Source: Pleurotus ostreatus/Saccharomyces cerevisiae fusant
Taxonomy: Eukaryota; Opisthokonta
Assembly (NCBI GenBank): GCA_024196135.1
Contig: JAMQCK010000322.1
Location: 1 to 28,298, forward strand
Length of the DNA stretch: 28,298 nt
Direction: 5' to 3'
A program made the position numbers and the translations under genes. This document shows, in pieces, positions 1,790 through 20,774 of the stretch. The notes under the pieces were generated by a model. That model was not told where the DNA came from, searched no databases, and saw only the letters and a list, made by a program, of their open reading frames with translations. Within the stretch, counting starts at the first letter, position 1. Each line of letters begins with the position of its first letter.

Positions 1790-4700
1790 ATGTTCTTGTG
1801 AGTCCCAATTTCGTCTTCGCCCGCGAGTTAACTAACCGGACGATCGCCTCCCAGATCCAGTCTCATGCCGCAAAGTGGACCCTACAGTCTCCAAAACCCC
1901 TTCATAGCTCAGAACAGCCCTTACATGCCCCAAAGCTCGCCTCTTGGTCCCCGCCACGGCCCGTACAAGACGCGTAGCTACTCCAATCTTCAAGGTCAAG
2001 AGAACCTGCCGCCTCTCGGCGCGCCTTTCGTCCATAAAAAATTGGCGCCCTTGGTCCACCAGACCTCGGCGCCCTTCGTCGCTCAAAATTTGGCTCTCTC
2101 CGCCAACCAGAAGCCGGCTCCCTTCGTCACCGCCCAATTGGTGCCCTTCGTTGCCCCACAATCGGTGCCCTTCGTCACCCCCCAGTTGATTCCCTTCGTC
2201 GACTACCAGGCGCCTCTCGATTCCCGCTTCTCCGCTCACAAGATGCGAGGCTATCCTGGTGCTCGCGATCGAGAGAGTGCCCCTCTACCGACTTCCTTCG
2301 TCGACCCACCGTCTGCCCCCCTCGTGAACGAACATCCGACTCCTTTCGTCGATCAGAAGACCTCCCTCTTCGTCGAGCAGAAAACCTCCCTCTTCGTCGA
2401 CCAAAACTCGCATATCTGCATCGACCGCACGGCGCGCCTCTTCGACGATCGGGATGTCTCCTGTCCTCGGAGCGAGAACAAACTGGCCTCGTTGAAGGCC
2501 CTCGGGCTCGGCTGGCCCTCCTCTATCCCGCTCGGCCATCCCTTCGAGATACCGGGACCTCAACCGCGCAAGTCGAATGCTCTCGAGTCGCATGGTTATC
2601 ATCACCACGACCAACCCTCGGGGTCACATCCTCACGAACACTCCCCGAGGGCTCGTGACCACGGCTACCACCCCTACAAACAACCCTCGCACACACCAAG
2701 TCTTCAACCCTCGCACACGCCCGGAATTCAACCCCGAAAGCCGAGTGCCCTCCACTCCGTCCAAGCCCACGTGCAGCAAAATCTGAAGCCGGCGGCAGGT
2801 CGGGCGGTCCGGTACACGACGCCGGCGGTGGTATATGCGCCGGCGGGGGCGGCGCATGTGCCATTCGTTGCGAGTACGGGTTCGTCGTGGGAGGATGAGG
2901 TGGAGGTGGGATATTGTGGGGAGGTTGCGGCCGAGAACCCGATGGACGAGGACGTTGACTTCCCGGAGGGCGTCGTCGGCGCGAAGGATGTGACGCTCAA
3001 CGACGCCGAGTCTTGCGCGGCCGTCTATCGCGAAGCCCAGTCTAGCGAGGGTGAATCTCGCGACAAGGAGATTGTTTCGTCCTTCGATGTGGCGTCGTGG
3101 GCCTGGGTAGGCTCAGATGACACAGAAACCTCACTCGATGGCGCTGTCGACGGCGACGATCTCTGCGACGACTACGGTACCGATGGACCCCGCGGCGCGG
3201 TCTACGATGACGAACTCTGCGTCTCGCGCGATGTCGGCAATGACGAGAACCTCATCTATCACGACGAGCCCAGCGGCGCGGTCGACACCTACGGCTACGG
3301 CTCGGTCGACACCTACGGCTACGGCTCGGTCGACAACTACGGCTACGGCGCGGTTGACACCTACGGCCACGGCGCGGTCGACAGCTGCGGCTACGGCGCC
3401 AACGACCTCACCACGGTCACCTTCAACAAGGCCGACGACCCTTGGGCTATCATCGCGGACCTCAACTTCGCAATCCCCGACTACAGCAAGGCTGCTTCTC
3501 GCGGTGCCGGCGTGAAAAGGTGTTCCCGTGGCGCCGACGTTCAGAGCTCTTCTCGCGGTGCCAACGGTCAGAGCTCCCCCCGTGGTGCCAACGCTCAGAG
3601 CCCTCCCCGTGGTGCCAATGTTAAGGCTCCTCGTGGCGCCGACGTTGAGGCTCCCTCTCGTGACGCCGACGTCGAGGCTCCCTCTCGTGAGGCCGACAAC
3701 ATGGCCCCCGACTTCAAGAAGGACCACTCCATGGCTACGCCTACCATCACCTACCACACTGCCACCCAAACCACCACCTACAACACCACCGACGCCTACG
3801 GGTACGCCGCGTTCGACGCGCGGCTCGCCGATCTGGAGTCCTGCGAGGCGTTCGAGAAGGATATCGATGCGGCGCTGGCGGGGTGTGCGAGTTGGGCGGA
3901 GGCTGGGCGTGCGAGTTGGGAGGAGGCTGGGCGTGCGAGCGGTGACGCTGCGCTGGCGGGGTGTGCGAGCGGTGACAGTGCGTCGGATGGGTGTGCGAGC
4001 GGTGACAGTGCGTCGGATGGGTGTGCGGGCTTTGACGTGCTCACTGAGTGTGCGAGCTTCGACACTGCGCGCAAGGGGATGGGAAGTTGGGAGGGGGAGC
4101 TGGACGTGGGGCGCTGGGAAGGGGAGGCTGCGATGAGTTTGTGGGAAGATGAGCTCGGAAGCGTCTGGGACGATGAGCTCGAAAGGCACTGGGACGATGA
4201 GCTCGAGAGCTTCTGGGATGATGGCGAGGAGGTGATGAAGGACGATGGCGAAGAGGGAAAGGAGATGGTCGATGGCGGGGCGCGGAATGATGGCGGCGAG
4301 CGCGAGGAGGTGAGGGATATGGATGATGGCAAGGAGAACGGGGACGAGGACGGTGACGGTGGTGAGGGAGGGGAAGGGGAAGGTGGCGCGGGTGGAGGTG
4401 ACAGCGGCGCGGGTGAGAAGGGTGGTGAGGCGGGTGACAATGGAGAGGGAGGGGACGATGGCGACGGCAAGCGCAAGCAAGGCAACTCGGGCAGCGGCGA
4501 CCGAAAGGAAGAAGACCCCGAAGACCAAGACGAGGACGAAGGCGAGGACCATCGCAAGGACGAAGACGAGGACGACGGCGGAAATTCCGCTGAACACAGG
4601 ACCAGTGAGCGTCAGCCCGGCCCCGCAACTATCCCCTTTGTTGCTGCCGTCCCCTTCCATGCCGACTCGACGCTCCCCTTCCATGCCGACTCGACGATCC

Positions 4701-4876
4701 CCTCCCAGAACCCCTCCACCTCCCAAGATCCCGCCTCCTCCGCCATCCCTCGCCCTCGCCCCCAACCCGCCGACTCCTTCTCCACCGCCCTCGACGCGTG
4801 GCACGACCTGGACCGCAACCGCGAAGAATCTTGGGACGCGAAGTTGGACGAATGGTACGCGCCGCTGCGAGGGTAG
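1790..4876 (+). CDS. Low-complexity, repeat-built acidic protein, 1009 aa, function unknown
   Basis: Two exons, 1790-1797 and 1855-4876. The first exon encodes only M-F-L less one base. A 57-nt intron (GTGAGT donor, TTAACTAAC branch point, CCCAG acceptor) joins it in frame, giving MFLSSLMPQ; the alternative start is the ATG at 1865 with no intron. No family is recognised. Visible in order: an N-terminal region of about 15 'PFV/PLV' repeats rich in Q and N (residues about 30-190); a His/Pro-rich stretch; five exact-length 8-residue VDTYGYGS repeats (residues 479-518, DNA 3281-3400, unit 24 bp); Ser-Arg-Gly-Ala repeats ending in AD/AN; CASGDSASDG repeats; four WDDEL-type repeats; a long tract almost entirely of D, E, G and K; two PFHADST repeats; and a short tryptophan-containing C-terminus. 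No signal peptide or clear membrane segment is seen. The architecture suggests a largely disordered protein. The unbroken frame over 3 kb of repeats and the short intron argue that it is real. Confidence 0.7.
1798..1854 (+). other. 57-nt intron after an 8-nt first coding exon
   Basis: The GTGAGT donor follows ATGTTCTT, there is a TTAACTAAC branch-point match about 25 nt before the acceptor, and a CCCAG acceptor. Splicing keeps the frame into the long exon. Without splicing, the ATG at 1790 meets TGA at its fourth codon. Confidence 0.65.
3281..3400 (+). repeat. 24-bp coding minisatellite, 5 units
   Basis: Five head-to-tail 24-bp units encode variants of VDTYGYGS inside the 1009-aa protein. 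Most differences between units are single bases, so the copies are fairly recent or homogenised. The unit length is a multiple of three, as required to keep the frame. Confidence 0.9.
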
Positions 4877-5392
4877 GGAAGCGGTGCGTGCCGCTCCGGT
4901 GGTACGCGCCACGTCGGGCGCAGGAAATCATACGCTCTGCTTCGAGCGTAGGATGCGAGCTTCGCGCCGCTTCGAGCGTGCTTAGGAGGGCCGGGCGAGG
5001 GAAACTACAAGGGTACCAAGATCAGGATGAAAAAGCGCATTGGGGAGGATCAAGACAGGACGTGTGCATTGGGGAGGGTCGAAGCATACCGAGCGCAGTG
5101 CGGTCCATAGGATAAAGATTAAATCGTAGATAATAAACAGATAAACAGAGTGAACATATGATTACGACAGCCGTCTACATGTTCCTACTCTCGACGACCG
5201 TCTATGTGGCCTTCCTCTCTTCACACTTCTCCCCTCCTCACACTTCCACCCCCTTTATAACCTCAGCCAACCACCCACCAGCGACCAACTACCCACTTCC
5301 CCTTCCTCCCCCCACTTGTCCTCGCCCCACCCTCCTCGTCCTCATCCTCCTTCCCGCCCTGTCAAAAAAAAATGACAAAACGATTCCGAACT
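4877..5392. other. 3' flank of the 1009-aa gene; no gene seen
   Basis: Apart from a few short chance open frames I see no coding signal. The plus strand becomes AT-rich near 5112-5155 (AATAAACAGATAAACAG), a plausible 3'-end region for the upstream gene. It ends at the poly-A run at 5364-5372, which read on the minus strand is the Pol III terminator of the tRNA-Asp locus. Confidence 0.5.
5364..5372 (-). terminator. Pol III terminator, nine T residues
   Basis: On the minus strand a run of nine T lies 81 nt beyond the mature 3' end of tRNA-Asp and about 20 nt beyond the last extra 3'-half copy. It sits inside a small inverted repeat, TGTCA..TGACA. A shorter TTTT precedes it at 5377-5380. Because no T4 run lies between the tRNA and this point, a Pol III transcript should read through both extra 3' halves. 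Confidence 0.65.
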
Positions 5393-5453
5393 TCCTCGGC
5401 GGTGCGTCGGACGCCCGCTCCCTCCTCGGCGGTTGCGTCGAACGCCCACTTCC
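5393..5453 (-). repeat. Two extra degenerate copies of the tRNA-Asp 3' half
   Basis: Directly downstream of tRNA-Asp (minus strand) are two further copies, 5423-5453 (31 bp) and 5393-5422 (30 bp), of the T-arm plus 3' acceptor strand. Both keep the acceptor sequence CCGCCGAGGA exactly and a TTCGA or TCCGA loop core. Their T stems have changed in the same way (GCGTTCGACGC and GCGTCCGACGC), so the two extra copies share a history after diverging from the intact gene. Confidence 0.85.
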
Positions 5454-5555
5454 TCCTCGGCGGGGAGTCGAACCCCGCTCTCCCGCGTAAAGTGCCCCAA
5501 ACTAAGGAACGAAAATACTGACAGGCGGGTGTACTAGCCGATATACTACCGAGGA
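5453..5555 (-). tRNA. tRNA-Asp (GUC) with 31-nt intron
   Basis: Acceptor strands TCCTCGG (5549-5555) and CCGAGGA pair over 7 bp, with G as discriminator base. The D arm carries the A box TAGTATATCGG, the anticodon stem is CCCGC/GCGGG, and the loop CTGTCAC gives anticodon GUC. The T arm contains GGTTCGACTCC, a perfect B box. A 31-nt intron (5488-5518) sits at the canonical place, one base 3' of the anticodon. The mature 72-nt sequence is identical to the tRNA-Asp at 20679-20774, but the introns are unrelated. The gene is flanked on both sides by tandem copies of its own halves. Confidence 0.93.
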
Positions 5556-5556
5556 T

Positions 5557-5660
5557 ATACTAGCCGATATACTACCGAGGATATGGTAGCCGATATACTA
5601 CAGAGGACGTACTAGCCGATATACTACCGAGGACGTACTAGCCGTTATGCTACCGAGGAT
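5557..5660 (-). repeat. Four extra 26-bp copies of the tRNA-Asp 5' half
   Basis: Upstream of tRNA-Asp (minus strand) the 26-bp segment covering the 5' acceptor strand and whole D arm is repeated head to tail with no spacer: 5557-5582, 5583-5608, 5609-5634 and 5635-5660. The fifth unit, 5531-5556, is the tRNA itself. Each unit keeps an A-box-like TAGTATATCGG (TAGCATAACGG in the outermost). The unit nearest the tRNA differs from it at one position; the 5583 and 5635 units are more diverged. Confidence 0.9.
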
Positions 5661-6256
5661 GTAGGGGGGAAAAGGGATGGGTGTGTTGTACGTGGTGGTA
5701 GGGATGTGAAGGGGTAGGGGGATGTGGTATGTGAAGGGGTGGGGGGTTGGGATCTGAAGAGGAAGAGAGTGGTGGATGGGAGGGTGGGGATGGGAAGGAC
5801 GGGAAGCGGGTGGAGAGGCCTGACAGCGCTGATGAGGCGCGCGGACGAGGTCAAGGCGCAAATGAGGAGCGAGCAAAGAAGCGACGTCGCAGACCAAGAA
5901 GCGAGTCAGCACACACACAAGATGCGAGTTAGCACACGCATAAGATGGAATCAAATATCATATCATACAAACCAGAGAGTAAGTCGTAAGTCAGTCGTAT
6001 CGCGAAAAGAGAGCAGTCGTATCGCGAAAAGAGAGCAGTCGTATCGTGAAAGATAGCGCGCTGCGCCGGTCCGTATCCATCCCTCCTCGTCTACCATATC
6101 CTGCCCCCTCCTTCGTCACGCATGTCGCATCCCTCGCTCCATCTAACCCCCAAACAATACATCGCGCCTCTGCCCCGCTTCCTTCGCCTTCGCCTTCGCG
6201 CGCCGTTCCCAGCTGCGAACACCCCACCCCACCCCACCCTAACCCTCCCCCTAATC
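5661..6256. other. Intergenic; short repeats, no gene
   Basis: This lies between the tRNA-Asp half array and the stop codon of the Rab18-type gene. It contains G-rich sequence on the plus strand (5665-5790) and a 22-bp tandem repeat, CAGTCGTATCGCGAAAAGAG plus two bases, three times at about 5992-6057. I see no coding or RNA signal. Confidence 0.5.
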
Positions 6257-9200
6257 CTAACACCCACACCCGCCCTCCTCCCTCCCACTCCCACTCTCCC
6301 CGTCCAAACGCACGACCTGCACGCCGCCGGGCACGCCGCCGCGGCCGTGGTCCGTCCTGCAGAGGTTTCAGCATTTGCTCACAATGATGAAGGGGGATGG
6401 CGAAGGGCGGAGACGGAGGGAAGACGAAGGGCGGAGACGAAGAGGGAGGACGAAGGGCGGGGACGAGGGGAGATGGGGGGCGGGGACGAGGGAAGACGAA
6501 GGGCGAGAAGGAGACGGAGGGCGCGAAGGTGAGGAGAGCCGTGGGGCGGCGAGGGGCATAAGTGGGGCGAAGAGAAGAGGAAAAGAAACCGAGAAAGGAG
6601 GAAAGGAAATGAGAAGTCGAAGAACGCAAACAAGTAAAATACGCAATCAAAGAAAAATACGCACCTCGTCTCGCCCCCGCCGACTAACCCCTCGTCCTCG
6701 AGGACCTTCTCGATGAGCTGGGGAGTGCGTCAGTGGACTGGTTGATCTCGGCGAAACACTCTTGATGGCCAGCCGCGTCGATGCCCACTGCCTTCCGCCT
6801 TGACGCCATCCGTCCCCTTGCGCCTCGTCCTTCCGCCTCGACACCTTCGTCCTTCCGCTTCGACGCCCTCCGCACCCCGCCTCGACGCCCTCCATCTGCC
6901 CTCCGCCTCGACACCCACCCCCTTCCGCATCGTTCGCGCAACGGGCGCGCAATGGGCGCAATGCGAGCCGCACTCGGACGCACAAGGGCGGAGGCGCACT
7001 CGGACGCACGAGGGCGAGGGTGAGAGCGCACTCGTACATACGAAGTCGCAGGCGCACCCGGACGCACGAGGGTGGAGGCGCACTCGTACATACGAAATAG
7101 GAGGCGCACTCGTACATACGAAGTCGCAGGCGCACCCGGACGCACGAGGGTGAGAGCGCAGTGCGAGAGATGCGCCATAGGCATCCGCACCGCCACCCCC
7201 ACCACCAACCCCCTCTCACCCCCTTCACCAAGCCCCATCCCTCCACCCCACCCTCCACCCCCACTCCCTCACCCTCCACCCCTCAAACCCTTCACCAAAC
7301 CCCCTCTCACCTTCCCTCAAACTCCCCCCTTACCAAACCCCCCAAAGATTGACGCACAGCTAAAGAGGAATGACAGACAACAAAACCGCACCTTCTCAAA
7401 CACCTCCCTTACCCCCTCGCTCGTCTTCGCGCTCGCCTCGACGAACAGGGAGCCCATCCGGGCCGCGAAGGCGGCGCCTTCGGGGGTGGGGATCTGTTTT
7501 TGAGTTAATATTTTATTTGAAGGGGCGGTTAGTATTTAGCAATGTGTTAATAGTTTATTAGGAAGGGGGTTGGTGGGGATGTGATGAGAGTGAGAAGGGG
7601 GTAGGGAGAAGGAGGGAGGAGGGGTGATTCAAATCGCGCGAGGACGGGCTCCTGTCGCGCGACGAGCGCATCATCTGGCCGAAGACGTGGGAGGCGTGAC
7701 GAGCCCTCACCCCATCACGCGTCCCCTTCCCCCCCTTCCCCCTCTCCCACACCCTTCCCCTTCCCCCAATTCCCCCTCCCCCTTCTCTCCCTTCTCTCTC
7801 CCCCCTTCCCTCCTCTTTCTTTTCCCCCATCATCCAAACACCATCCCCCCAATACTCAAAAAGCCACAAAAAAATTATATAAAGAAAGCCAAAAAACTCA
7901 CCTCCCTCCCCCCCGCCTTATCCACCTTGTTCCCGACGAGCACCTTCGCGGCCGAGGCGGGCACGTAGGTCTCGAGTTCGGCGTACCTGTTAGATGTGTT
8001 TGAGTAGGTGGGTGACGGATGGTGATGGGAGAGAAATTGGGGAGTGGGAGGGAAGTGGGAAGTGGGAAGTGGGAAGTGGGGGGAGTGAGGCGAAGGGAAG
8101 GAAGGTTATGGGTGGGTGGGGGGGCGTGAGTTAGGTGCGGTGGTGGGGGGAGGCGAAGGGGGAGAGGCGGAGGGGGAGGGGGAGGGAGGGGAGGGGGAGT
8201 GGGGGCGGAAGGTGAAGGAGTGGCCGCGAGCGAAGCGGGGGCGAGAACGTGGAAGGGAAGGAGCGGGAGGGAGGGGAGCGAAGGTGCAGAGGCGAAGGAG
8301 GGTGGGCGAAGGGGGCGAGAGAGCGTCCGCACGGGGATTGCGGACAGGGGAATGGAAGCGGGGACGGGGAACAGGGGGATGGAAGCGGGGACGGGGAACA
8401 GGAGAATGGAAGTGGGGCCGAGGGAATGGAGGCGAATGAGCGTCGTGCTGGACGATCCGCCGCGCACTCACGCGCGTCCGACACCATTCGCACGCGCGAC
8501 GTCGCTCCTCCTCCAACCCCATCCAAAAAAACCACAACCACACCCAAAACCAAAAAACAATGTGCAAGCGGGTCGTGCGTATCTCAGCCACTCACCACCG
8601 CGGCAGCGCCTCGAACGACTCCCGGTTCGTCACGTCGTAGACTGGGAGGGGGGGGTTAGTATGTGATTCGTTCGTTTCGTTCGGTTAGTAATTTGTTCGG
8701 ATGTTAAATAGGGGTTAGTGTTTCGTTCGGTTAGTGATTCGTGCGTCTCGTTCGGTTAGTGATTCGTTCGTTTCGTTCGGTTAGTGTGTTTGTTATGTGG
8801 TTAAGGAGGAGAGAAGGGAGGTGGGGCGAAGGAGGGGTGAGGGAAGTGGGGCGAAGGAGGGATGGGGCGAAGGAGGAAAGGGGCGAAAGAGGAAGGGGCG
8901 AAGGAGATGAGAAGGGGAGGCGGTAAAAAAGCGCGCAAACATCTAGAAGGAAGAAAAGTACCCAAACCCCCCACTCACCCAACACAATCCCCTGCGCGCC
9001 CCGGTAGTAGCTCGCCGTGATCGTCCGGAAGCGCTCCTGGCCGGCGGTGTCCTGGCGAGCGTTAGCGAGCGGAGGGCGTGGGTTGTAGCGTTTTGGTTAG
9101 AGCAGTGGGCGGTTTTGTTTTTAGTATTGGGTGGTTTTTTTCGTATTTTGGTTATGAAGGAGGAGTGGGGTGAGTATCTATGTTAGTTTGCGGTAGTTCA

Positions 9201-10075
9201 TGACGAGCGATGGGGAGCGGGAGAGTAGGGAGGGTGAACCGGGCGGGGGAAGGGGGGGGCGAGGGGGTGAAGCGAGTGGAGGGGGAGCGGAGGGGGGGGG
9301 AGAGGGAGGGAGGGTGAAGCGAGTGGAGGAGGCCGGCAGGGACGAGGGGCGACAAGGGAGTGGTGACGCCCCACCTGGCGTTGGGAAGGAGGGAAAGTGG
9401 GACGGTTGGGGGGATGGGAGGGGGCGTGAGTGATGCGGGCGGTGGGAGGGGGCAAGGTGGAAGGATGGCGGAGGCCTCTCCACCTCCAAAAAAAACCCCC
9501 TCCACAAAAAATCACCCTACAAATATAACGAGAGACAACCAAACTCACCCAAATACTCAACTTCACCCTCCGCCCGTTGACATCCATCTTGTGCACGCGA
9601 AAGTCGACGCCGATGGTCGCCGTGGCCTCGTCCTCGGGCAGCCACTGCTCGTCGGAGAAGCGGAGGAGGAGGGAGGATTTGCCTGGGTGGGGAGTGTTGG
9701 AAGGGTGGGATTGTTAGGATGTTTTGTGAGTTGAAGACGAGCAGGTTAGTCAGGATCATGGTTATTATACATAGGGGGTGGAGTTGACGAGCAGTTGGGG
9801 GGGGGGTAAGGGGGGCGGGGTGCGAGGGCGAGGGAGGTGTGGGGAGTGAGAAGGGGGGAGGAGGGGGTGCGAGGGATGGGGTAGGCGAGTGGGAGGAAGA
9901 GCGAGTGAGGTGGGGAGTGGGGGTTGAAGGAGGAGGAGGAGGCGACGAGCACCGAGAACAGACGATCAGCAGAGCTTCCTGCACGAGATCCGACGCACGC
10001 ACCGACGGACGAGTTCCCGATGAGCAGCAGCTTGACGTTCAGGGGCGTGTCCTGGGCGGTGGGTGCGGGCGGCAT
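6257..10075 (-). CDS. rab18: Rab18-type small GTPase, 221 aa, 8 exons
   Basis: Exons on the minus strand: 10003-10075, 9549-9682, 8979-9051, 8596-8641, 7902-7986, 7392-7493, 6665-6717 and 6257-6356; all phases close. The product is a Rab GTPase, a membrane-associated trafficking switch; Rab18 relatives act at ER and lipid-droplet membranes. Motifs: GNSSVGKS (20-27, P loop), Thr47 in ATIGVDF (switch I), DTAGQE (70-75), NKVD (128-131) and SAK (158-160). [14 protein letters not shown] and LLLRF favour the Rab18 subgroup. The protein ends GGCGC, a CXC double-geranylgeranylation signal, which supports the last-exon model. The least certain donor is AAG|GTGCGG after VREVFEK; a GTAAGG lies nearby. 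Introns of 308-674 nt are very long for this genome and filled with short repeats. The partial gene at 24-532 is its paralogue. Confidence 0.9.
6357..6664 (-). repeat. Purine-rich minisatellite in last Rab18 intron
   Basis: On the plus strand the intron contains repeated variants of GACGAAGGGCGGGGACGAGG and GGAGACGGAGGGAAGACG (about 6395-6530). The pattern is irregular, with units of about 18-24 bp. It leaves long stop-free frames on both strands that are artefacts of the repeat. Confidence 0.7.
7016..7160. repeat. Compound minisatellite in Rab18 intron 6
   Basis: Alternating units containing GCGCACTCGTACATACGAAG and GCGCACCCGGACGCACGAGG recur several times, with a block of about 80 bp appearing twice (near 7024-7070 and 7105-7150). 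It lies inside the 674-nt intron between exons 6 and 7 of the Rab18-type gene. Confidence 0.75.
8143..8220 (+). other. G-run tract with quadruplex potential in Rab18 intron 4
   Basis: The plus strand has more than eight runs of at least three G separated by 1-5 bases (for example GGAGGGGGAGGGGGAGGGAG). Similar tracts occur at 9236-9320 and 9795-9880 in introns 2 and 1. They lie on the template strand of the minus-strand gene, so the transcript carries C-rich tracts here. Confidence 0.6.
8330..8415 (+). repeat. 26-27-bp tandem repeat in Rab18 intron 4
   Basis: Two near-identical units containing ATGGAAGCGGGGACGGGGAA, followed by a diverged third copy (ATGGAAGTGGGGCCGAGGGA). It is intronic. 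Confidence 0.7.
8680..8790 (+). repeat. 25-bp tandem repeat in Rab18 intron 3
   Basis: Repeated GTTCGGTTAGTGATTCGT followed by a variable GCGTCTC/TCGTTTC tail, two full 25-bp units plus partial and degenerate flanking copies. It is intronic, between exons 3 and 4. Confidence 0.75.
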
Positions 10076-10302
10076 GGTGGGCGTGGTTGTGTGTGGTGAT
10101 CGAGGGCTTGGGGTGGTGGTGGCGGTAGTGGTGGTGGTGGTGGACGCTGCTAGTGATGGACGCTGCTGGTGATGAACGCTGGTGGACACTGCTGGTGGTG
10201 GTGGCGCTGATTGTATGCGTGAATGGATCGTCGATTATCGGAGGCGCGCTGTGGTGTAACGGATCGGGGGTGGGCGGATCGGGCGCCGGGAGAGGATGGC
10301 GG

Positions 10303-10365
10303 GCGGGTGAAAGGGCGCACGAGGCGGGTGAAAGGGCGCACGAGGCGGGTGAAAGGGCGGACGAG
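10303..10365 (+). repeat. 21-bp tandem repeat, 3 units
   Basis: Three units of GCGGGTGAAAGGGCGCACGA plus G, the last with one change (GGAC for GCAC). Confidence 0.9.
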
Positions 10366-10444
10366 GAAGACGAGCGCGGTGGCGGACGATGAGATGGAGG
10401 TAGTTGGTGCGAGGAAGGACGGAAGCAGACGGTAGGGCAGGCGA

Positions 10445-10548
10445 CGCGAAGCGGTCGGTAGGACAAGCGCGGCGAAGCGGTCGATGGAACGGACGCGGCG
10501 AAGCGGTCGGTGGAACAGGCGCGGCGAAGCGGTCGGTGGAACGGACGT
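10445..10548 (+). repeat. 26-bp tandem repeat, 4 units
   Basis: Four units built on GGCGAAGCGGTCGGTGGAAC with a variable six-base tail (AGGCGC, GGACGC, AAGCGC, GGACGT). Confidence 0.9.
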
Positions 10549-10831
10549 CGGTAAGCTCTCGGTCTCGGACACGGATGAGAGAGGCGCGCGTACGGAGGGC
10601 TGCAAGCGCGTCCGGATGGCTGCGAGGTCGGTCAATCGCGTGCGAGCACGGATGGGTCGACTGCACGCACGGTCGGATGAGAGGCAGGCGCGGTCGCTCG
10701 TTTGGATGTCAAGCACGTCTGACGATAGGGAGGTTTAGGTCAAAGTAGGACGACAAGAAGGATCACGGTCAGACAACAGTCAAGCACTTGCCAGACAGAC
10801 GCGCCCCCGCCGCGTGAGGGCAGCATGCGCA

Positions 10832-10839
10832 TTACGTCA
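10832..10839. promoter_or_regulatory. bZIP/CRE-like site TTACGTCA
   Basis: TTACGTCA is a typical binding site for ATF/CREB-type bZIP factors. It lies about 760 bp upstream of the Rab18 start. A single occurrence in 28 kb can arise by chance, and no function is shown. Confidence 0.2.
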
Positions 10840-10959
10840 TGCGGCGCGCGCCGTCATCGGTGATCGGGGGAGGTGGGGGTGGCGCGTCTGTGCGATAGCT
10901 TCTCGCGGTCATTGACGCGTCGAGGGAGTTGCTTGCCTGACTTGGGCTGACGCGCCACT

Positions 10960-12330
10960 AACCCGCGTTCTATGGTCCGTTGACTGTCTGCCCTCTGTCG
11001 CTTCCCGCTTCCATACTTCCTCCTGTGCCTTTAAATTTGCCTTTACCTTCCGCCCGACCACAACCACATTCGCTCTTCGCGTCCATGGCTCTCGTTTCCG
11101 CCACTCCTCCTACACCGCATCCAATACTACTACTTCTCTGCACTGGCGTCCGTTACGCGCGTCATATCCCGCCCCGCCACCTCCCCGCTTCGTCCCACAA
11201 CCGGGCGCAAGACACAGGTGCGTATATGCTCTTGTCCGCTTCGATCGCGCTGCTGCCTTCTCCTTGACCCTCCCACCCTCCTCGCCCGCGCGCTCGGCCC
11301 CGTCCTCGACCTCGCTTACGCCGTGAGGACTAATTGACCTTCTCTTTGTCCTCCTATTTCAGTCTACCGCTTCCCCGTTCTCCCCCTCTCTCCCCCCCTC
11401 TCTCCCCCTCTCCCCTCTCTCCCCCCCTCTCCCCCCCTCTCCCCTCTCTCCCCACCCCACCCCCCCTCTCTCTCCCCTTCCTCCACCCCGCCCCTTGCAA
11501 CCCCTACGCAAACCACGCTCCCCTACCCAAACCACGTTCCCATACCCAAACCACGCTCCCATCCCACCACTGGCGCGTCTGCTTGGTGGCCTCTCGCGGG
11601 CCTGCTTGTTGGCCTCTCGCGGGTCTGCTTATCAGCCTCTCGCGGGTCTGCTTGGTGACCTCTCGCGGGTCTGCTCGTTAGCCTCTCGCGGACATGCACG
11701 CGTCGAGGTCGATGGTCTGCTTGACGTCTGCCTGATGGTCTGCTTGACGTCTGCCTGATGGTCTGCTTGACGCGCTGCTTGATGCCTGCCTGATGCTTGC
11801 CTGACGCGCTGCGTGCCCGCGTCCTATAGTCCATCGACTGACCCGCATCCTATAGTCCGTTGCCTGACCCGCGTCCTATAGTCCATTCCATCGACTAACT
11901 GCTCACTTGTTCTTGTCCTGAACGTCCCGCTTTCAGCCCTCCTCCGCGTCCCTTTCCCTCCGCCCGACCAAAGCCACGGTCCTCTTTACGTCGCTTGGCC
12001 TCGACATGGGCATACTTGTCCTGCATCTCCTTACCTACCCTTGTCCTGCGCCGCCCTCAATGCTACTATCTTAACCTGCGCCACCTTCGCTGTCACTATT
12101 TCCCGAAACCGACGTCCGTCGTGCGCGTCAGAACCCGCGTCGCTGCCTCGCCGCTAGTTCGAATGACCGGCCGCAATCTGCGGTGCATATATGCTCTTGT
12201 CACCTTTGGTCGTGCCGCTACCTTCTTCTCCTCCGCCTTCCCAACCTTCCCGACCCGCGGGTAACCCTCGTGCCCGCGCGCACGGACCGCTCTCCAGGTC
12301 GCTCGCGCCGCGACTGATGCAAGGTCACAT
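10960..12330. repeat. Decayed tandem duplication, two copies about 0.9 kb apart
   Basis: Segments of about 10960-11340 and about 11840-12330 share collinear matches. ACCCGCGTTCTATGGTCCGT aligns with ACCCGCGTCCTATAGTCC; CCGCCCGACCACAACCAC (11050) with CCGCCCGACCAAAGCCAC (11960); and GCGTATATGCTCTTGTC (11220) with GCATATATGCTCTTGTC (12185). Both continue into a CT-rich block and GCCCGCGCGC. The sequence between matches has diverged, and the array at 11580-11820 has grown between the copies. Confidence 0.55.
11580..11694 (+). repeat. 23-bp tandem repeat, 5 units
   Basis: Five 23-bp units of the form TGCTTNNTNNCCTCTCGCGG plus three bases. It is followed by a second, related 23-bp array (GATGGTCTGCTTGACGTCTG plus three bases) to about 11815, and by a 26-bp repeat with CCTATAGTCC at 11820-11890. 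Confidence 0.9.
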
Positions 12331-12749
12331 TATCCTCCTTCTCTTCCTTCCTACCCCGACTCCCTAGTCTCTTTCCTCTACCCCTTGATCTCTCCCAGAC
12401 TCCGTCTCCTCCTCTTCTCCTCTTCTCGTCGATCCTGCGCCCTTTCTTGCCCTTCCTTCCCCCCCCCCCGACTCAACCCCCCCTTTCCTCTTCTCCTTCA
12501 TTTTACGTCCTCTCCTTCATTTTACGCCCTCTCCTTCTCCCTCCTTTCCTCTTCTCCCTCCCTTTCCTTCTCCCTCCCTTTCCTTCTCCCTCCCTTGCGC
12601 CATCACGCGCTTCCGCTGTTGGCCACTTCAGGTTGTCCTGCGATGGACACACTGGCGGGCGCATAGAGGGAGACAGATGCGGGCGCATAGAGGGAGACGA
12701 GCGCGGACGAGCGCACGTAGGCAGACGAGCGCGGACTAGCCCATACAAT

Positions 12750-12803
12750 CAGACGAGCGCACCTGTCCAGACGAGCGCACCTGTCCAGACGAGCGCACCT
12801 GTC
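12750..12803 (+). repeat. 18-bp tandem repeat, 3 units
   Basis: Three exact copies of CAGACGAGCGCACCTGTC, followed by a degenerate fourth. Confidence 0.9.
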
Positions 12804-12833
12804 CAAATGAGTGCGGACGAGCCCACGCAACTC

Positions 12834-12940
12834 ACCCCCCACAGAAGAGCACTCACCTCCAACAGAAGAGCACTCACCCCCCACAGAAGAGCACTCACCT
12901 CCCACAGAAGGGCACACACCTCCCACAGAAGAGCACACAT
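12834..12940 (+). repeat. 21-bp tandem repeat, about 5 units
   Basis: Units of the form CTCCCACAGAAGAGCACTCA plus C, five times with scattered substitutions. Confidence 0.85.
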
Positions 12941-12995
12941 CATGTCTCTCGAACGCCCACGGCTGCCAACCCCATCCCCACGCGCGTCCCTGAGC

Positions 12996-13163
12996 CTTTT
13001 CGATGGGCGTCCTTGACCCTATTCGACGCGGGTCCCTGAGCCCTTTTGGCATGCGTCCTCGAGATTTTCGGCGTGCGTCCTCGAGACTTTTCGATGTGCA
13101 TCCTCGAGACTTTTCGACGTGCGTCCTCGACCCTATTCGATGGGCGTCCTCGGCCCTATTTGG
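12996..13163 (+). repeat. 24-bp tandem repeat, about 7 degenerate units
   Basis: Units around TTTTCGATGTGCATCCTCGA plus GAC, alternating with CCCTATTCGA variants. It is more diverged than its neighbours. Confidence 0.75.
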
Positions 13164-13331
13164 CGTGCCTCTTTCAACGTTTCGTGCCTTAGAGTCTCAC
13201 TCTTTTGCTATACGACGGACTCACTCTTTTTGTGCACGACTATCACTCATCTCGCGCTTAGGAGCAGCGCCCCCTTCGCCTCTTGGCTCACAAGCGCCAA
13301 GTCCGGCCCGCACACCGACCTACCGACCCTG

Positions 13332-13478
13332 GCTCCTCGCACGCCGACGTTAGCTCCTCGCACACCGACGTTAGCTCCTCGCACACCGACGTTAGCTCCT
13401 CGCACACCGACCGTAGCTCATCGCACACCGACCGTAGCTCATCGCACACCGACCGTAGCTCCTCGCACACCGACCGTA
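13332..13478 (+). repeat. 21-bp tandem repeat, 7 units
   Basis: Seven units of GCTCCTCGCACACCGACGTT plus A. Two point variants (GACGTTA or GACCGTA, CTCC or CTCA) are shared by adjacent units, which shows unit-by-unit spread. A (TTCC)n microsatellite of about ten units follows at 13519-13557. Confidence 0.92.
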
Positions 13479-13789
13479 GCTCCTCTGCGCAGTACCCCCT
13501 CCTCGCCTGAATAGCCAACTTCCTTCCTTCCTTCCTTCCTTCCTTCCTTCCTTCCGTCCCTCTTTCCCTCGCAGCCCGCCCGCAACAGTCCTTCCATCGC
13601 ATCGCGCTACCCGCCACTCGCCAGCACCTGCTTTCCTCGTGCCAGCACCCTGCTTTCCTCCTCGTGATAAGTCCCTTCTTCCTTCGTCGTGTGGCCATCC
13701 TCCCTTCGTCGTGCGGCTGACCACCCTTCGTCGCGCCTCCATCCTCCCTTCGTCGTGCGGCCGACCTCTCTTCGTCGCGCCAACACCCT

Positions 13790-13875
13790 GCTTTCCTCGT
13801 CGTGATAACTCCCTGCTTTCCTCGTCGTGATAACTCCCTGCTTTCCTCGTCGTGATAACTCCCTTCTTTCTTCGT
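13790..13875 (+). repeat. 25-bp tandem repeat, about 3.5 units
   Basis: CTGCTTTCCTCGTCGTGATA plus ACTCC, repeated. Related TTCGTCGTGCGG motifs extend upstream to about 13670 in a looser form. Confidence 0.85.
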
Positions 13876-13920
13876 CGTGCGGCCTCTGCAGGCGTGCAAG
13901 CCCTCCCTGCCCTCACCTCA

Positions 13921-14035
13921 GTACAAGCCCTCACACCGCACGCGTACAAGCGCTCGCACCACCTGCGTACAGGCCCTCGCACCGCACGCGTACAGGCCCT
14001 CAAACGGCACGCGTACAAGCGCTCCCCTCGCAGGG
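13921..14035 (+). repeat. 23-bp tandem repeat, 4-5 units
   Basis: Units of GTACAAGCCCTCACACCGCA plus CGC. It is followed directly by a 26-27-bp array with GCAGTCGCTGCTCCGGCTGA (about 14065-14180) and then a CTACCCGGCGCG array (about 14235-14330). Confidence 0.88.
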
Positions 14036-14369
14036 TATTTTCCTCTCTCAGTCTGGCCCGCAGTGCAGTCGCTGCTTAAGCTGAGCGGTGCAGTCACTGC
14101 TCCGGCTGAGCGATGGAGTCGCTGCTCCGCTGAGCGGCGGAGGCGCTGCTCCGGCTGAACAGTGCAGTCGCTGCTCCCCGAAGGGTCCTCCCCAGCGGGT
14201 CCGCAACGGCTTCCCGGCGACCTGGCGCGTCCTCGAAGGCTACTCAGCGCGTCCTCAGCGGCTACCCGGCGCGTCCGCAACAGCTACCCGGCGCGAAGCA
14301 AATGAAGACGGCTGCCCGGCGCGAAGCAAATGAAGACGGCGACGCCTCGATCTCTGCAGGAGGGTGACG

Positions 14370-14606
14370 TTCCAACCGACGCGCCGCGAAAGCGACATTC
14401 CACGCGACGCGAGAGGGGGCGACGTCCAGACCGGTGCGATAGGGGGCGACATTCCAGACCGACGCGAGGGGGGGGGACATACAGACCGGCGCGAGAGGGG
14501 GCGACATCCAGACCGGCGCGCCGCGAGGGCGACGTCCAGACCGACGCGAGAGGGCGACGTCCAGACCGCGCGAGAGGGGGGGACGTCTAGTCCGCGCGAT
14601 AGGGGG
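14370..14606 (+). repeat. About 27-bp tandem repeat, 8-9 units
   Basis: Variants of GACGCGAGAGGGGGCGACGT followed by CCAGACC, with length variation in the G run. Confidence 0.85.
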
Positions 14607-15117
14607 GACCCGACGTGAGGGTAGCGAAGGTCGGCGGTGCAGTCCCCAATCAGCCGTGCAGGATCCCAGCAGTCCCCGTTCAGCAATCGCACTCTCGACG
14701 GTGCTGGACCTGCGCTGATTCCCCCTCCCTCCCCGTCACCTCCAGTATCGCTTCGCCCAACGCTACGTTCGCCCACCGTCTACTCCATTCTCTTTCCCAC
14801 CCTCTCCTCCTCTCTCCGTTCCCACCTCTTCCCTCACCCTCTCCTTCTCGCTCCCACCCTCACCATCTCCTTCTCGCTCCCACCCTCTCCTTCTCACTCC
14901 GACCCTCACCTTCTCGCTCCGACCCCCAACCTCACGCTCTGGCTCTCCCCGGTCGCTGTACGATGTTTTATTTGGCCTGAGCCTTTGACGGGCACTGGAA
15001 GGCGAGGCTCTGGCGGCGACTGGCGACTGCAAGAGGAAGCGCTGGTGACTGGAAGAGGAAGCGCTGGCGGTGACAGGAAGGCGAGAGACGGTGCTCCGAC
15101 GACGACTGGGGGCCGGA

Positions 15118-15183
15118 GCGCGGTGGACTAGATAACGAAGCGCGGTGGACTGGAAAACGAAGCGCGGTGGACTGGAAAACGGA
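15118..15183 (+). repeat. 22-bp tandem repeat, 3 units
   Basis: GCGCGGTGGACTGGAAAACG plus AA, three units and a partial fourth. Confidence 0.9.
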
Positions 15184-15446
15184 GCGCGAAGGACTGGCAC
15201 ACGACGTTGGTGATATCGTCCTGGTATATGAGTCTGCGGCATCGTCCAAATGGGTGTCCCTGGTGACATCGTCCAGCTGTACAGCCTGGCCGACATCATC
15301 CGAATGGGTGCCCGTGGTGATATCTTCCAGCTATACGACGCACAATATCGACGCCACCGGATGCCCCGTGCGATGGTGAATTGGCCGGCTTTTCAAGTTC
15401 TTCCTGCGCCGCGACGTCTTGCGCCTGGCCTTTTCGTGCGCTCTTG

Positions 15447-15560
15447 CGCCCGACCGTATACGACGTTCTGCGCCCGACCCTATTCGACGTCTTGCGCCCG
15501 ACTATATTCGACGTTCTGCGCCCGACCCTATTCGACGTTCTGCGCCCGACCTTTTTGTGC
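15447..15560 (+). repeat. 24-bp tandem repeat, 4-5 units
   Basis: CGCCCGACCCTATTCGACGT plus TCTG, four full units and a decayed fifth. Confidence 0.92.
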
Positions 15561-15682
15561 GCCCTGAGCCGTTAGCTCGTAAGCGCCCTGGGCTATTAGC
15601 TTATCACCACCACGATGTTACAGTACCATCACCTCTCCGATTCACGCATAGCGGGCTTCTGGGACGAGAGCGCCGGGACTGG

Positions 15683-15882
15683 GATGCTCGATGGGAATGG
15701 CTCGCTGAACGGAACGGCTCGCTCGACGGAACGGCTCGCTCGACGAGAATGGCTTGCTCGACGGAACGGCTTGCTCGACGGAACGGCTCGCTCGACGAGA
15801 ATGGCTCGCTCGACGGAATGGCTCGCTCGACGAGACTGGCTCGCTCGACGAGAACGGCTCGCTCGACGTCAACGGTCCGCCG
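15683..15882 (+). repeat. 15-bp tandem repeat, about 13 units
   Basis: GGCTCGCTCGACGGA and GGCTCGCTCGACGAGAAT variants in head-to-tail order. Both the ACGGA and the ACGAGAA forms occur several times. Confidence 0.9.
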
Positions 15883-15937
15883 AGGCGGGGGTCCGTGCTG
15901 GTCGACGGGATGGCGGAGGAGACTCCGCTCGCAGGCC

Positions 15938-16070
15938 ATGCAGGTACGACGAGCCTGTCATGCAGGTACGATGAGCAGGCCATGCAGGTACGACGAGCCT
16001 GCCATGCAGGTACGATGAGCCTGCCATGCAGGTACGACGAGCCTGCCGTGCAGGTATGACGAGCCTGCTC
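15938..16070 (+). repeat. 22-bp tandem repeat, 6 units
   Basis: CATGCAGGTACGACGAGCCT plus GC, six units. Some carry GATGAG for GACGAG. An independent 22-bp array (GGCTGTGGAATCTGGCGAGG plus AA, three units) follows at about 16328-16393. Confidence 0.9.
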
Positions 16071-16578
16071 GCGTTCGTTCACTGCGAGTGTCGGTCACGA
16101 CAGAAACAACGAAGAAGCGCCTGGTACTAGCCCGCAGCTCTGGTCCGACTTTTCGCCCGCACCCCCACACCCACGCAGGCCTCTCCCACACCCCCGCAGA
16201 CCTCTCCCAGCCCACCCGCACGCCGAATCCATTGTATCGAGGCGGCCGAGGATCTGCATCGAGGCGAAGAGTGCGCGGAGAGAAGGGAAATGCGAGGGAG
16301 ATGGGGAGAACTCGGCGTGTAAAGACTCGGCTGTGGAATCTGGCGAGGAAGGCTGTGGAATCTGGCGAGGAAGGCTGTGGAATATGGCGAGGAAGGGAGG
16401 GCACACCCATGGATACCGTACCTCGATCCGAGCTCGCCTTCGTATTTGTTCGCGTGCCACGAAGATTGGATACTACAATTCAATACATTGACTGCTTTCT
16501 TTCTTTATCTTTCCATCTCCTTCCTCCTCCTCTCCTCCCTCCTCCTCCTCCTGCTCCCTCTCCTTCCTCCTCCTCCCC

Positions 16579-16690
16579 CTCCTCCTACCCCAACCACCCC
16601 CTCACCTCCTCATCCTCCCCCTCCTCCTAACCCAACCACTGCCTCGCCCTCCTCCTACCCCAACCACCCCCTCACCTCCTCGTCCTCCAA
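16579..16690 (-). repeat. 68-bp direct duplication over the PNC1 stop region
   Basis: The segment containing the last codons and stop of the nicotinamidase gene (plus strand CTCCTACCCCAACCACCCCC, at about 16651) recurs about 68 bp further on (about 16583), in the 3' flank. The copies are nearly identical over about 40 bp. Confidence 0.7.
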
Positions 16691-17969
16691 CCCCCTCACT
16701 TTCACGCCCTTGCTCTCCAGCTCCTCCTCCAACGCGGCAAGCTTGTCGGGCGATGGGTCGACGGCGCGGGTGGCGTCGCGCACCAAGATGACGTCGAGTC
16801 CTGGATTTCGTGTCAATTTATAGCTGAGTAGGTGGTTTGCCCTTGCGAGCTATGCAAGTGGTTTGCCCTTGCGAACAATACAAGTGGCTTGCCCTTGCGA
16901 GCAATACGAGTGGTTTGCCCTTGCGAGCTATACAAGTCGTGAGCCGCGCACCTTCCGCGCGGGCGTCCAGCGCACTCGCCCGCACACAGTAGTCGTACGC
17001 GAGGCCGACGACGTAGACGTGCGTTATGCCCTTCTCCCCATCTGTCTCTCCGTGCTCGCCTCCAGCTCTCTCTCCGTGCTCGCCTCCAGCTGTCTCTCCG
17101 TGCTCGCCTTCAGCTCTCTCTCCGTGCTCGCCTCCAGCTCGCACCTCCTTCAACACCCCAGCGAGACCCGAATCCTCCACCCGCAGCGGATCGTAGAACG
17201 CGGAGTACATCTCGACGCGCTGGTCGGTGCCTTTATCCAATACCAGATCCACCTTGGTCGTATCAAGGTTGGCGACCAGGTCGGCTCCGGGGGTGTGCTG
17301 GACGCAGTGGGTGGGCCAGAGGCGGGTGGTGTACGCCCGTTGGGTCGAGTGGGAGGGGTCCTTAGCGAGGTCTCCTGGGTCCTCAGCAAGGTCTTCCGGG
17401 TCTCCCGGGTCTTTAACGAGGTCTTCCGGGTGCACGATCTCCACCTCATCCGTGAACGCCTTCTTTCCCTATTCTCCTTTAGCATCCCGTTGGACATCAA
17501 AAGCAAAAGGAACGTACCGAATGATTCTCCGCGAACGAGATGTGATTCCGTGGATGCCAGTCCCGGGTCGCTACCCTGTAGACGAAAGCGGGGCGCGCGA
17601 GGAGGTCGTTTATGGTGGGGATGATGTCGCGGCCGCCGGGGACGGCGAGGGCGCCGTTGGGTATGTCTGGGGAGGATGTGTGGTCAGCTTGCTGGGTCGA
17701 AAAGAAAGAATGGATACAGGGCAAGGTCCATGGTGCGACATTGCAGAGGAGATGGGAACTATTCCCTCGACATTGAGGACGAGACAGTGAGGACGAGACA
17801 GGATCTTCCTTTGCTAGAAGAAGGAAGACCATTCCTTGCGAGTCCTTGATGGCCTCGGGAAATGGAGAAGAAGACGAGAAGCGCGCCACTCACCACCATC
17901 CCCCGGACAGAAGTCGTTTTGCATGTCAATCACGAGCAGCGCGGGGCGGAAGGGGGCGGGTGGGGGCAT
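16655..17969 (-). CDS. PNC1: Nicotinamidase (isochorismatase-like hydrolase), 295 aa, 4 exons
   Basis: Exons 17894-17969, 17518-17666, 16952-17468 and 16655-16800 (minus strand); all phases close. The enzyme hydrolyses nicotinamide to nicotinic acid and ammonia in the NAD+ salvage pathway. Active-site residues are in place: Asp15 in VIDMQNDF, Lys154 in LDKG and Cys236 in GLAYDYCV form the catalytic triad. Asp61 and His63 in DWHPRNHISF and His129 in WPTHCVQ are the usual metal ligands. At 295 aa it is about 70-80 residues longer than typical fungal nicotinamidases (about 216-220). The excess lies in an acidic repeat at about 91-115 (DPGDPEDLAEDPGDLAKD) and in four 8-residue AGGEHGER-type repeats at about 186-218, between the catalytic Lys and Cys. 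The last intron (16801-16951) is also a tandem array. The ATG at 17969 starts right before the conserved N-terminal strand. Confidence 0.93.
16832..16935 (+). repeat. 26-bp tandem repeat inside PNC1 intron 3, 4 units
   Basis: GTGGTTTGCCCTTGCGAGCA followed by six variable bases, four full units of exactly 26 bp. They make up most of the 151-nt last intron. The intron would be close to 50 nt without them. Confidence 0.92.
17043..17138 (-). repeat. 24-bp coding repeat in PNC1 exon 3, 4 units
   Basis: Four 24-bp units (plus strand TGTCTCTCCGTGCTCGCCTC plus CAGC) encode the 8-residue AGGEHGER/T insertions. The exact multiple of three preserves the frame into the catalytic-Cys motif. Confidence 0.92.
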
Positions 17970-19129
17970 GGTGAGATAGCTGTTGGATGAGGATGGGATG
18001 GGATGGAATGGGATGGGATGAGATGAGTCGCGGATCGCTGGGCCAAGTCCGTGAGATGGTTGTCCGGTCGTCCGTCTCGAGCGCAAGTCGCAGGTAATGC
18101 AGCAATCAGGGAAGGCGTGGAAATGCGGGCCAGGAAGGCGTGGAGATGCGGATGCGAAGCCGCGTAGTGCTGGTGGCTGGAGCCAAGTTGTCGTATCGCC
18201 CGACTCGAACCTCGATAAGCGCGCGTGATCGTGGGAGCAGACGAGGACGGAAGCAATGACAATGTCATGCTGCGGAGGGTTCGAATCCTCCCTTTCCCAG
18301 CCACTTCGCTTCACCGTCAGATCGTGCCCTTGACTTTCGCGTCTGTTGTGCTGATATCCTCTTTGAAAGGACGTCTCCGAATATTTGCCTCGCATGATTA
18401 CTTAACCACGACTGCCCCTTCCGGCTCGAGTACTCCTCGAACGGCCGTCGTCCCGACCCTGCTTGTCAATGGGTCCAGCCAGCACCCGCTCTGCTTTAGC
18501 TCCCTGCCAGATTATGCTCCCAGGTATACCCAGGCGCGCCTCAGACCGACGCCCCCCGGTGACTCGCTGACTCGAGCCCCACTGGCCGATGTCTGTGCCC
18601 ATGGCGCGCTGGTTGCCGGCCCGAACGGTGTCGGCGACGTTGTGCACTCGATGAGGACGCTCAGTATTGCCGCGGTCCTCCGGAAAACACTTGTCGCTAA
18701 ATACTCGCAGACCTCCGGGAGCACTAAATGGTGCAGCCTTTCCGACCGCGTCGAACGATGCAACCTTTTCGACAGGTCTTGCCAGCGGCGGCTCCCTTGG
18801 ATAAATATGACTGGCGGCAGAATCAGCGCTAGCCTGCGAGCGTACTACTCTGCAGGAAGCGTTGATCTCGCAAAGAGGAGGGCGGCTCGCTGGGTTCAGA
18901 GTCAATCATGACTACGTGCGCAGATTCGACGTCCGTCTCAGTTCTCTTGCTCACGTCGCACTGGCAGTGCAATGCTCCTCACCTCCTCCATCTTCCCATC
19001 TCACCGGCGCTTCTTTTTTGCCATCTTAGCGTTTCCTCTCCCGTCACCCTCTCCTCCTACTCCTCTCTTCGGCTTCTATCCGCACTTCTTCGACCCCCTG
19101 TATAAAAATTGGCTCGACCTTATTGCACC
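17970..19129. other. Intergenic between PNC1 and tRNA-Asn
   Basis: Just upstream of the PNC1 start is a pentanucleotide microsatellite, (GGATG)n with interruptions, at 17991-18025, in the presumed 5' leader or promoter. Overlapping open frames of 228 aa (plus, 18225-18911) and 167 aa (minus, 18402-18905) resemble nothing I know and neither shows splice structure. A perfect B-box sequence, GGTTCGAATCC, at about 18278 could not be folded into a tRNA. Confidence 0.5.
19101..19107 (+). promoter_or_regulatory. TATA-like element upstream of tRNA-Asn
   Basis: TATAAAA begins 29 bp before the mature 5' end of tRNA-Asn, the position at which TFIIIB/TBP contacts DNA. An upstream TATA is known to assist some fungal tRNA genes. 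Confidence 0.45.
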
Positions 19130-19230
19130 TGCCCCGTGGCCCAGATGGTTAAGGCGTGTGACTGTTATGCAATCTCAAAACCGATGATCTAGCAATCACA
19201 AGATCGAGAGTTCGAGCCTCTCCGGGGCAG
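19130..19230 (+). tRNA. tRNA-Asn (GUU) with 27-nt intron
   Basis: Acceptor strands TGCCCCG and CGGGGCA pair over 7 bp, with G as discriminator. The D arm is GGCCCAGATGGTTAAGGC (A box), the anticodon stem is TGTGA/TCACA, and the loop CTGTTAA gives anticodon GUU. The T arm is GAGAG TTCGAGC CTCTC. The intron, 19168-19194, lies one base 3' of the anticodon. The mature length is 74 nt. It closely resembles yeast tRNA-Asn over the D and anticodon arms. A T5 terminator follows at 19250-19254. Confidence 0.95.
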
Positions 19231-20678: not shown

Positions 20679-20774
20679 TCCTCGGTAGTATATCGGCTAG
20701 TACACCCGCCTGTCATAATATGGGAAGCGGAACGTCTTACGCGGGAGAGCGGGGTTCGACTCCCCGCCGAGGAG
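20679..20774 (+). tRNA. tRNA-Asp (GUC) with 24-nt intron
   Basis: The 72-nt mature sequence is identical to the tRNA-Asp at 5453-5555: acceptor TCCTCGG/CCGAGGA, A box TAGTATATCGG, loop CTGTCAC with anticodon GUC, and B box GGTTCGACTCC. The intron, 20716-20739 (24 nt), is unrelated in sequence and length to the 31-nt intron of the other copy. Here the gene is single, with no duplicated halves. Five T residues at 20814-20818 can terminate Pol III. Confidence 0.95.

Follow-up and report, generated by a model that had tools for sequence, protein, structure and literature searches.

The locus analysed here raises the question of how a tRNA gene can come to lie between tandem arrays of its own halves. 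The gene is located in a window of 28,298 nucleotides, which is contig C528 of a 40.05 Mb assembly comprising 1277 contigs. Direct reading of the minus strand from position 5659 to 5392 gives five 5' units, an anticodon arm with an intron, and three 3' units. Half-arrays nested around a tRNA-Asp gene with a single anticodon arm had been described in a first-pass annotation of the window. The nesting is borne out by the reading, by TRF and by shuffled controls (0 of 200), and on the minus strand only the halves are repeated. The arrays are probably a product of ordinary minisatellite turnover that reached the tRNA-Asp gene, and no system specific to tRNA genes has to be assumed.

The intron of the tRNA-Asp gene is positioned after tRNA position 37. 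Of the 12 further tRNA-Asp genes identified, 10 match this gene at all 72 exon positions; with the C528 gene included, the exon sequence is identical in 11 of 13. Neither ARAGORN (bacterial settings) nor Rfam called the intron-bearing C528 gene. Two other intron-bearing tRNA-Asp genes (L012 and L014) likewise received no Rfam call, when tested alongside three intronless paralogs that each scored 57.3 bits against RF00005. All five intronless paralogs with identical exons were called tRNA-Asp(gtc) by ARAGORN, and the identity of the C528 gene follows from its sharing their exons. Judged by exon identity, the gene qualifies as a putatively functional tRNA-Asp gene. Among the 13 tRNA-Asp genes (L012–L023 and C528), one of which occupies window positions 20679–20774 on the plus strand, five have no intron and eight have introns of 10–33 nt at position 37/38. 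Except in C528 and its counterpart on contig C1253, these introns look unrelated by eye despite the identical exons in 11 of the 13 genes, which we read as fast turnover of introns within one tRNA family.

Table 1. Positions of the tRNA-Asp gene, its half-arrays and their surroundings in the window
Feature	Position	Strand	Remarks
Minisatellite-dense stretch	2001–18000		26–56% per 2 kb in arrays, period 10–80 bp
tRNA-Asp(GUC) gene	5453–5555	minus	103 nt; exons identical to paralogs
Exon 1	5555–5519	minus	
Intron	5518–5488	minus	31 nt
Exon 2	5487–5453	minus	
5' array as a whole	5659–5530	minus	Five 26-bp copies; TRF: 5532–5660, period 26, 5.0 copies, 89% matches, score 195
Four extra 5' units	5556–5659	minus	tRNA positions 1–26; 5659–5634, 5633–5608, 5607–5582, 5581–5556
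Innermost 5' unit	5530–5555	minus	Inside gene
Outer 5' border	5660–5664	minus	CTACA flank ahead of outermost copy; directly precedes gene in C1253
3' array as a whole	5482–5392	minus	Three 30–31-bp copies; TRF: 5393–5480, period 31, 2.9 copies, 83% matches, score 125
Innermost 3' unit	5453–5482	minus	Variable loop, T-arm, acceptor; inside gene
Second 3' unit	5422–5452	minus	T-arm degenerate; TRF and reading
Third 3' unit	5392–5421	minus	T-arm degenerate; changes common to second unit and C1253 outer unit
Putative Pol III terminator	5364–5380	minus	T4 5380–5377; GTCA-T9-TGAC, T9 5372–5364

Both arrays consist of head-to-tail tandem units within the range of about 10–100 bp that characterizes minisatellites, as identified by TRF. 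The first and last 38 nt of the gene align locally to their own flanks with scores of 52 and 34, respectively, and neither score was reached with any of 200 flanks shuffled in dinucleotide blocks. Counted by eye from the outermost inward, the extra 5' copies depart from the gene sequence at 3, 1, 4, and 1 of 26 positions. The two outermost units have TACG as their last bases, and a T stands at position 25 in units 3 and 4; these shared variants suggest that the 5' array grew stepwise. The copies were compared with the A- and B-box consensus sequences. By eye, the A-box-like motif TAGYATAWCGG is intact in all five 5' copies, in agreement with the five A boxes noted previously. The outer two 3' copies are degenerate in the B-box region, with about 3–4 mismatches to GGTTCGANTCC by eye.

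Both outer 3' units of C528, and the single one of C1253, differ from the gene by an inserted C, a T-to-G change, and a C-to-A change around TTCGA. Therefore, one old outer unit likely predates the divergence of the two contigs. The proposal that both arrays expanded outward is not supported for the 3' array, because its outer copies share changes that the gene lacks. The coincidence of unit borders with the structural halves of the tRNA is only loose: TACA precedes the gene in C1253 and the outermost copy in C528, and recurs at tRNA positions 23–26, so the register of the 5' units is ambiguous by 4 bp and their border is not sharply the end of the D-arm. Furthermore, units of this size are commonplace in the window, where 69 of the 116 TRF rows with a period of at least 10 have a period of 20–30. 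The terminator has a counterpart in C1253, GTCA-T6-TGAC. The first T4 lies 72 nt downstream of the gene in C528 and 49 nt downstream in C1253, and the median over 76 tRNA genes is 5. The transcript is thus predicted to run on for about 72 nt beyond the gene, a 3' trailer in which two decayed T-arm/acceptor copies would lie.

Contig C1253 (13.4 kb) starts at the same base as the window and is collinear with its first 12.5 kb, with an identity of 97% in the first kilobase and 46–91% per kilobase after that. It carries the same tRNA-Asp gene with a related intron and terminator. The unit counts of C528 and C1253, contigs whose allelism is inferred, are five versus one for the 5' half and three versus two for the 3' half. 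Extra half units are absent from the other 11 of the 13 tRNA-Asp genes. Because of these 11 genes and the single 5' unit of C1253, the single copy is the likely ancestral state. The first-pass annotation had held that absence of the arrays elsewhere would speak against its description. C1253 is partly such a case, and the smaller numbers of both units in this likely sister haplotype would mark the tRNA arrays as variable.

From sequence comparison, C1253 probably represents the second haplotype of a dikaryon, both haplotypes of which were partly assembled. In the RNA polymerase second-subunit family, two genes are present as pairs (92% and 94%), and a third, partial match on contig C447 has no partner. 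The pair of C528 and C1253 may instead represent a segmental duplication, because window positions 23.8–26.3 kb have no close second copy; the longest match elsewhere is 66% over 568 query bases. The open reading frame at 1865–4876 on the plus strand has as its only match, among the best 7995 candidates, a hypothetical protein from Schizophyllum commune (51% identity over 94%). The C1253 counterpart of the frame shares 67.7% identity with the same protein, and between C528 and C1253 the frames are 67% identical in the first third and 54% in the last. These identities make the three proteins look like variants from one very diverse species, and the genome is likely that of the split-gill mushroom S. 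commune. Haploid assemblies of this species have been published, 34 from the USA and 21 from Russia (PMC9187340). The frame encodes 1003 amino acids, contains repeats of 24–54 bp, and has no Pfam match at an E value of 0.01; it appears to be a fast-changing, repeat-bearing protein.

The tRNA arrays are embedded in 16 kb of DNA rich in minisatellites, the coverage of which drops to 0–5% in the remaining window. At a resolution of 2 kb, the dense stretch ends fairly abruptly. Coverage is 2.4% over 144,469 bases of 83 other loci, a background that is mostly tRNA-centred, counts L066 and L072 again within L114 and L115, and also takes in L013, a piece of the window from beyond the dense stretch. 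Within the 12.5 kb shared with C1253, merged TRF output with periods of 15–60 contains 39 arrays in the window and 38 in C1253. By hand count, 32 of the 39 window arrays exceed the aligned stretch of C1253 by at least 0.8 copies, and 27 of the 38 C1253 arrays exceed the window by the same measure, where both counts derive from a rough alignment and units taken from one contig. The two tRNA arrays are among these arrays.

Short tandem duplication by replication slippage or unequal exchange, with units of 20–30 bp, would account for both tRNA arrays, and the same process likely filled the surrounding 16 kb. Local slippage, which had already been named as a possible source, is supported by these observations. 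The first 26-bp duplication may have used the TACA before the gene and the TACA at positions 23–26. A duplication from TACA to TACA is exactly 26 bp long and would place CTACA ahead of the outermost unit, which is what C528 has. The TACA match is suggestive only, because at the tRNA locus 12% of control periods match as well as the true offset and there is no general excess: in 22 arrays that are approximately single-copy in the other contig, the longest offset match averaged 3.5 for both true and control periods. Microhomology was accordingly dropped as a general source of arrays and kept as a local suggestion. The 3' array would have grown from an already decayed outer copy that was re-duplicated in C528. 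A tandem duplication across a gene end spares one complete copy, whereas an internal one would destroy the gene. Since only end-spanning duplications leave a complete gene, the single anticodon arm would require no special mechanism; selection or gene conversion may keep the arm single and the core perfect. The arrays are predicted to be near-neutral. Slippage alone does not explain why both arrays begin at a gene end.

To place the locus among other tRNA genes, 76 genes were surveyed, a part of all those in the genome: 63 of 921 family candidates and the 13 tRNA-Asp genes, none of which is among the 63. Half copies stand out at four genes, the tRNA-Asp genes of C528 and C1253 and the tRNA-Val genes of C1265 and C218. 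No clear half copy was found at the other 72, including L062 and L088, which have short weak matches only. The tRNA-Val gene of L114 (C1265:1–5000) lies at 2174–2247 on the minus strand, and L115, from C218, is likely its allelic partner. In C1265, the 3' end of the gene with its T-run terminator is repeated imperfectly several times downstream, and C218 has one extra copy. For the 3' end, exact 12-base copies occur in C1265 at distances of 45 and 203 bases from that of the gene itself, and in C218 at 26 bases; on other contigs containing this sequence, none of the matches listed lies within 900 bases of another. The like 3' repetition and unequal copy number of the tRNA-Val pair support minisatellite turnover as the source of such arrays.

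Flanking minisatellite other than the half copies amounts to 0.26, 0.32, 0.08, and 0.00 at the four half-copy loci versus a mean of 0.013 at the 72 (Mann-Whitney p 0.0004, with the alleles of two likely pairs counted as independent). Within 400 bp of the half-copy locus on C1265 there is no other minisatellite (0%), and L073 and L070 have flanking fractions of 0.22 and 0.20 yet no half copies. The pyrimidine content of the 100 bases upstream, measured beyond the arrays, is 0.88 in L072, 0.83 in L066, 0.77 at the C528 tRNA-Asp gene, and 0.68 in L012, and averages 0.49 over the 72 genes; it is also high in L070 (0.84) and L018 (0.87), though these have no half-arrays. Generic scans for further half-arrays were unproductive: pairs of canonical B boxes starting 23–53 nt apart gave 7 matches versus 8 for the control, none of them on contigs of the surveyed tRNA genes, and two TAGCTCAG motifs with 8–38 nt between them gave 1 match versus 10. 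A B box followed by T4 was matched 455 times versus 71 for the control, with longer T-runs counted repeatedly, which suggests that the genome contains tRNA genes beyond the 76 of the survey, and nothing further.

Alternatively, the ends of tRNA genes might themselves be hot spots of tandem duplication, where Pol III complexes and replication pausing would seed half-arrays. Half-arrays occur at two unrelated tRNA loci with the gene end inside the repeat both times, and a paper on Entamoeba tRNA arrays discusses tRNA genes as hot spots of recombination, and pausing as favouring slippage (PMC2652664). However, the 72 surveyed genes without a clear half copy make a general hot spot improbable, as do the window's two other tRNA genes, which lie outside the dense stretch and have no half copies, and the association of half copies with local minisatellite density. 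One of these two genes, at window positions 19130–19230 on the plus strand, bears an intron and scores 49.1 bits against RF00005. A version confined to repeat-prone DNA, in which Pol III-bound ends of Schizophyllum tRNA genes duplicate outward and seed minisatellites until the genes end up between their own halves, is a tentative and rather doubtful proposal.

It is highly unlikely that the arrays are under selection because extra A boxes recruit TFIIIC/TFIIIB, or because the decayed 3' copies in the trailer modulate processing or compete with the gene for its acceptor stem. In the first-pass annotation, the arrays were proposed as a possible cause of altered TFIIIC binding or alternative transcripts. 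The five intact A-box-like copies would fit such a role, and the distance to the first T4 is exceeded in only 1 of the 75 other genes; however, the likely sister haplotype has different copy numbers, and the B boxes of the outer 3' units are decayed. Predicted pairing of the tRNA with its own acceptor falls from 0.94 for the core to 0.51 with the trailer and 0.17 with all copies. In contrast, the array-free gene L013 gives only 0.004–0.02, and for C1253 the value ranges between 0.11 and 0.91 depending on 6 nt of leader. Because control genes are equally erratic, nothing is concluded from acceptor-stem competition in the folds; folding as a sign of functional effect, computed with 0–4 extra 5' copies and for 13 tRNA-Asp genes, was rejected as too unstable in the controls. 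We consider the arrays real and an assembly artefact unlikely. Mis-joined repeats might be expected in so fragmented an assembly, but each copy carries its own substitutions, the arrays are short (about 130 and 90 bp), and C1253 independently holds a partial form, which leaves this explanation hardly credible. Ordinary turnover of the surrounding minisatellites remains our preferred reading. If it is correct, a Pol III gene has been caught becoming part of a minisatellite, with the likely sister haplotype as an earlier state. The locus would then offer a natural test of two points: how far a tRNA gene tolerates the multiplication of its 5' A box and the lengthening of its 3' trailer, and whether tandem duplication is favoured at tRNA ends. 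Were seeding by gene ends true, one dikaryon would carry natural alleles of one tRNA that have several A boxes and long trailers.

Half-arrays are uncommon among the surveyed genes, yet they work like known repeat processes. The literature searched, including the available parts of PMC2652664 and PMC2888827, contained no half-specific array of a nuclear tRNA gene, and nor, as judged by titles, did the papers found on Schizophyllum commune and minisatellites. In the tRNA arrays of Entamoeba (PMC2652664), tandem repeats likewise adjoin tRNA genes and strand slippage is proposed, but those arrays consist of whole tRNA genes, and the short tandem repeats are microsatellite-like. The C528 locus is not a multi-copy array of this type, because its repeats comprise only the halves of a single gene, around one anticodon arm. 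Circularly permuted tRNA genes and split ones (PMC3978253) resemble it in having gene halves as separate pieces. The locus belongs to neither class, since its pieces follow the normal order, the gene is interrupted by the intron alone, and the extra halves lack partners. A further likeness is to mitochondrial genomes. Tandem repeats there can contain partial tRNA duplications, so that tRNA pieces lie within repeats; in C528, however, the gene is apparently a nuclear Pol III gene and the arrays flank it on both sides. Minisatellites, or VNTRs, arise by local tandem duplication. The C528 arrays share with them head-to-tail units of 20–30 bp, copy-specific substitutions, and a copy number that differs between likely haplotypes, and differ from them in that the repeated unit comes from a tRNA gene, which itself forms the innermost copy of two arrays.
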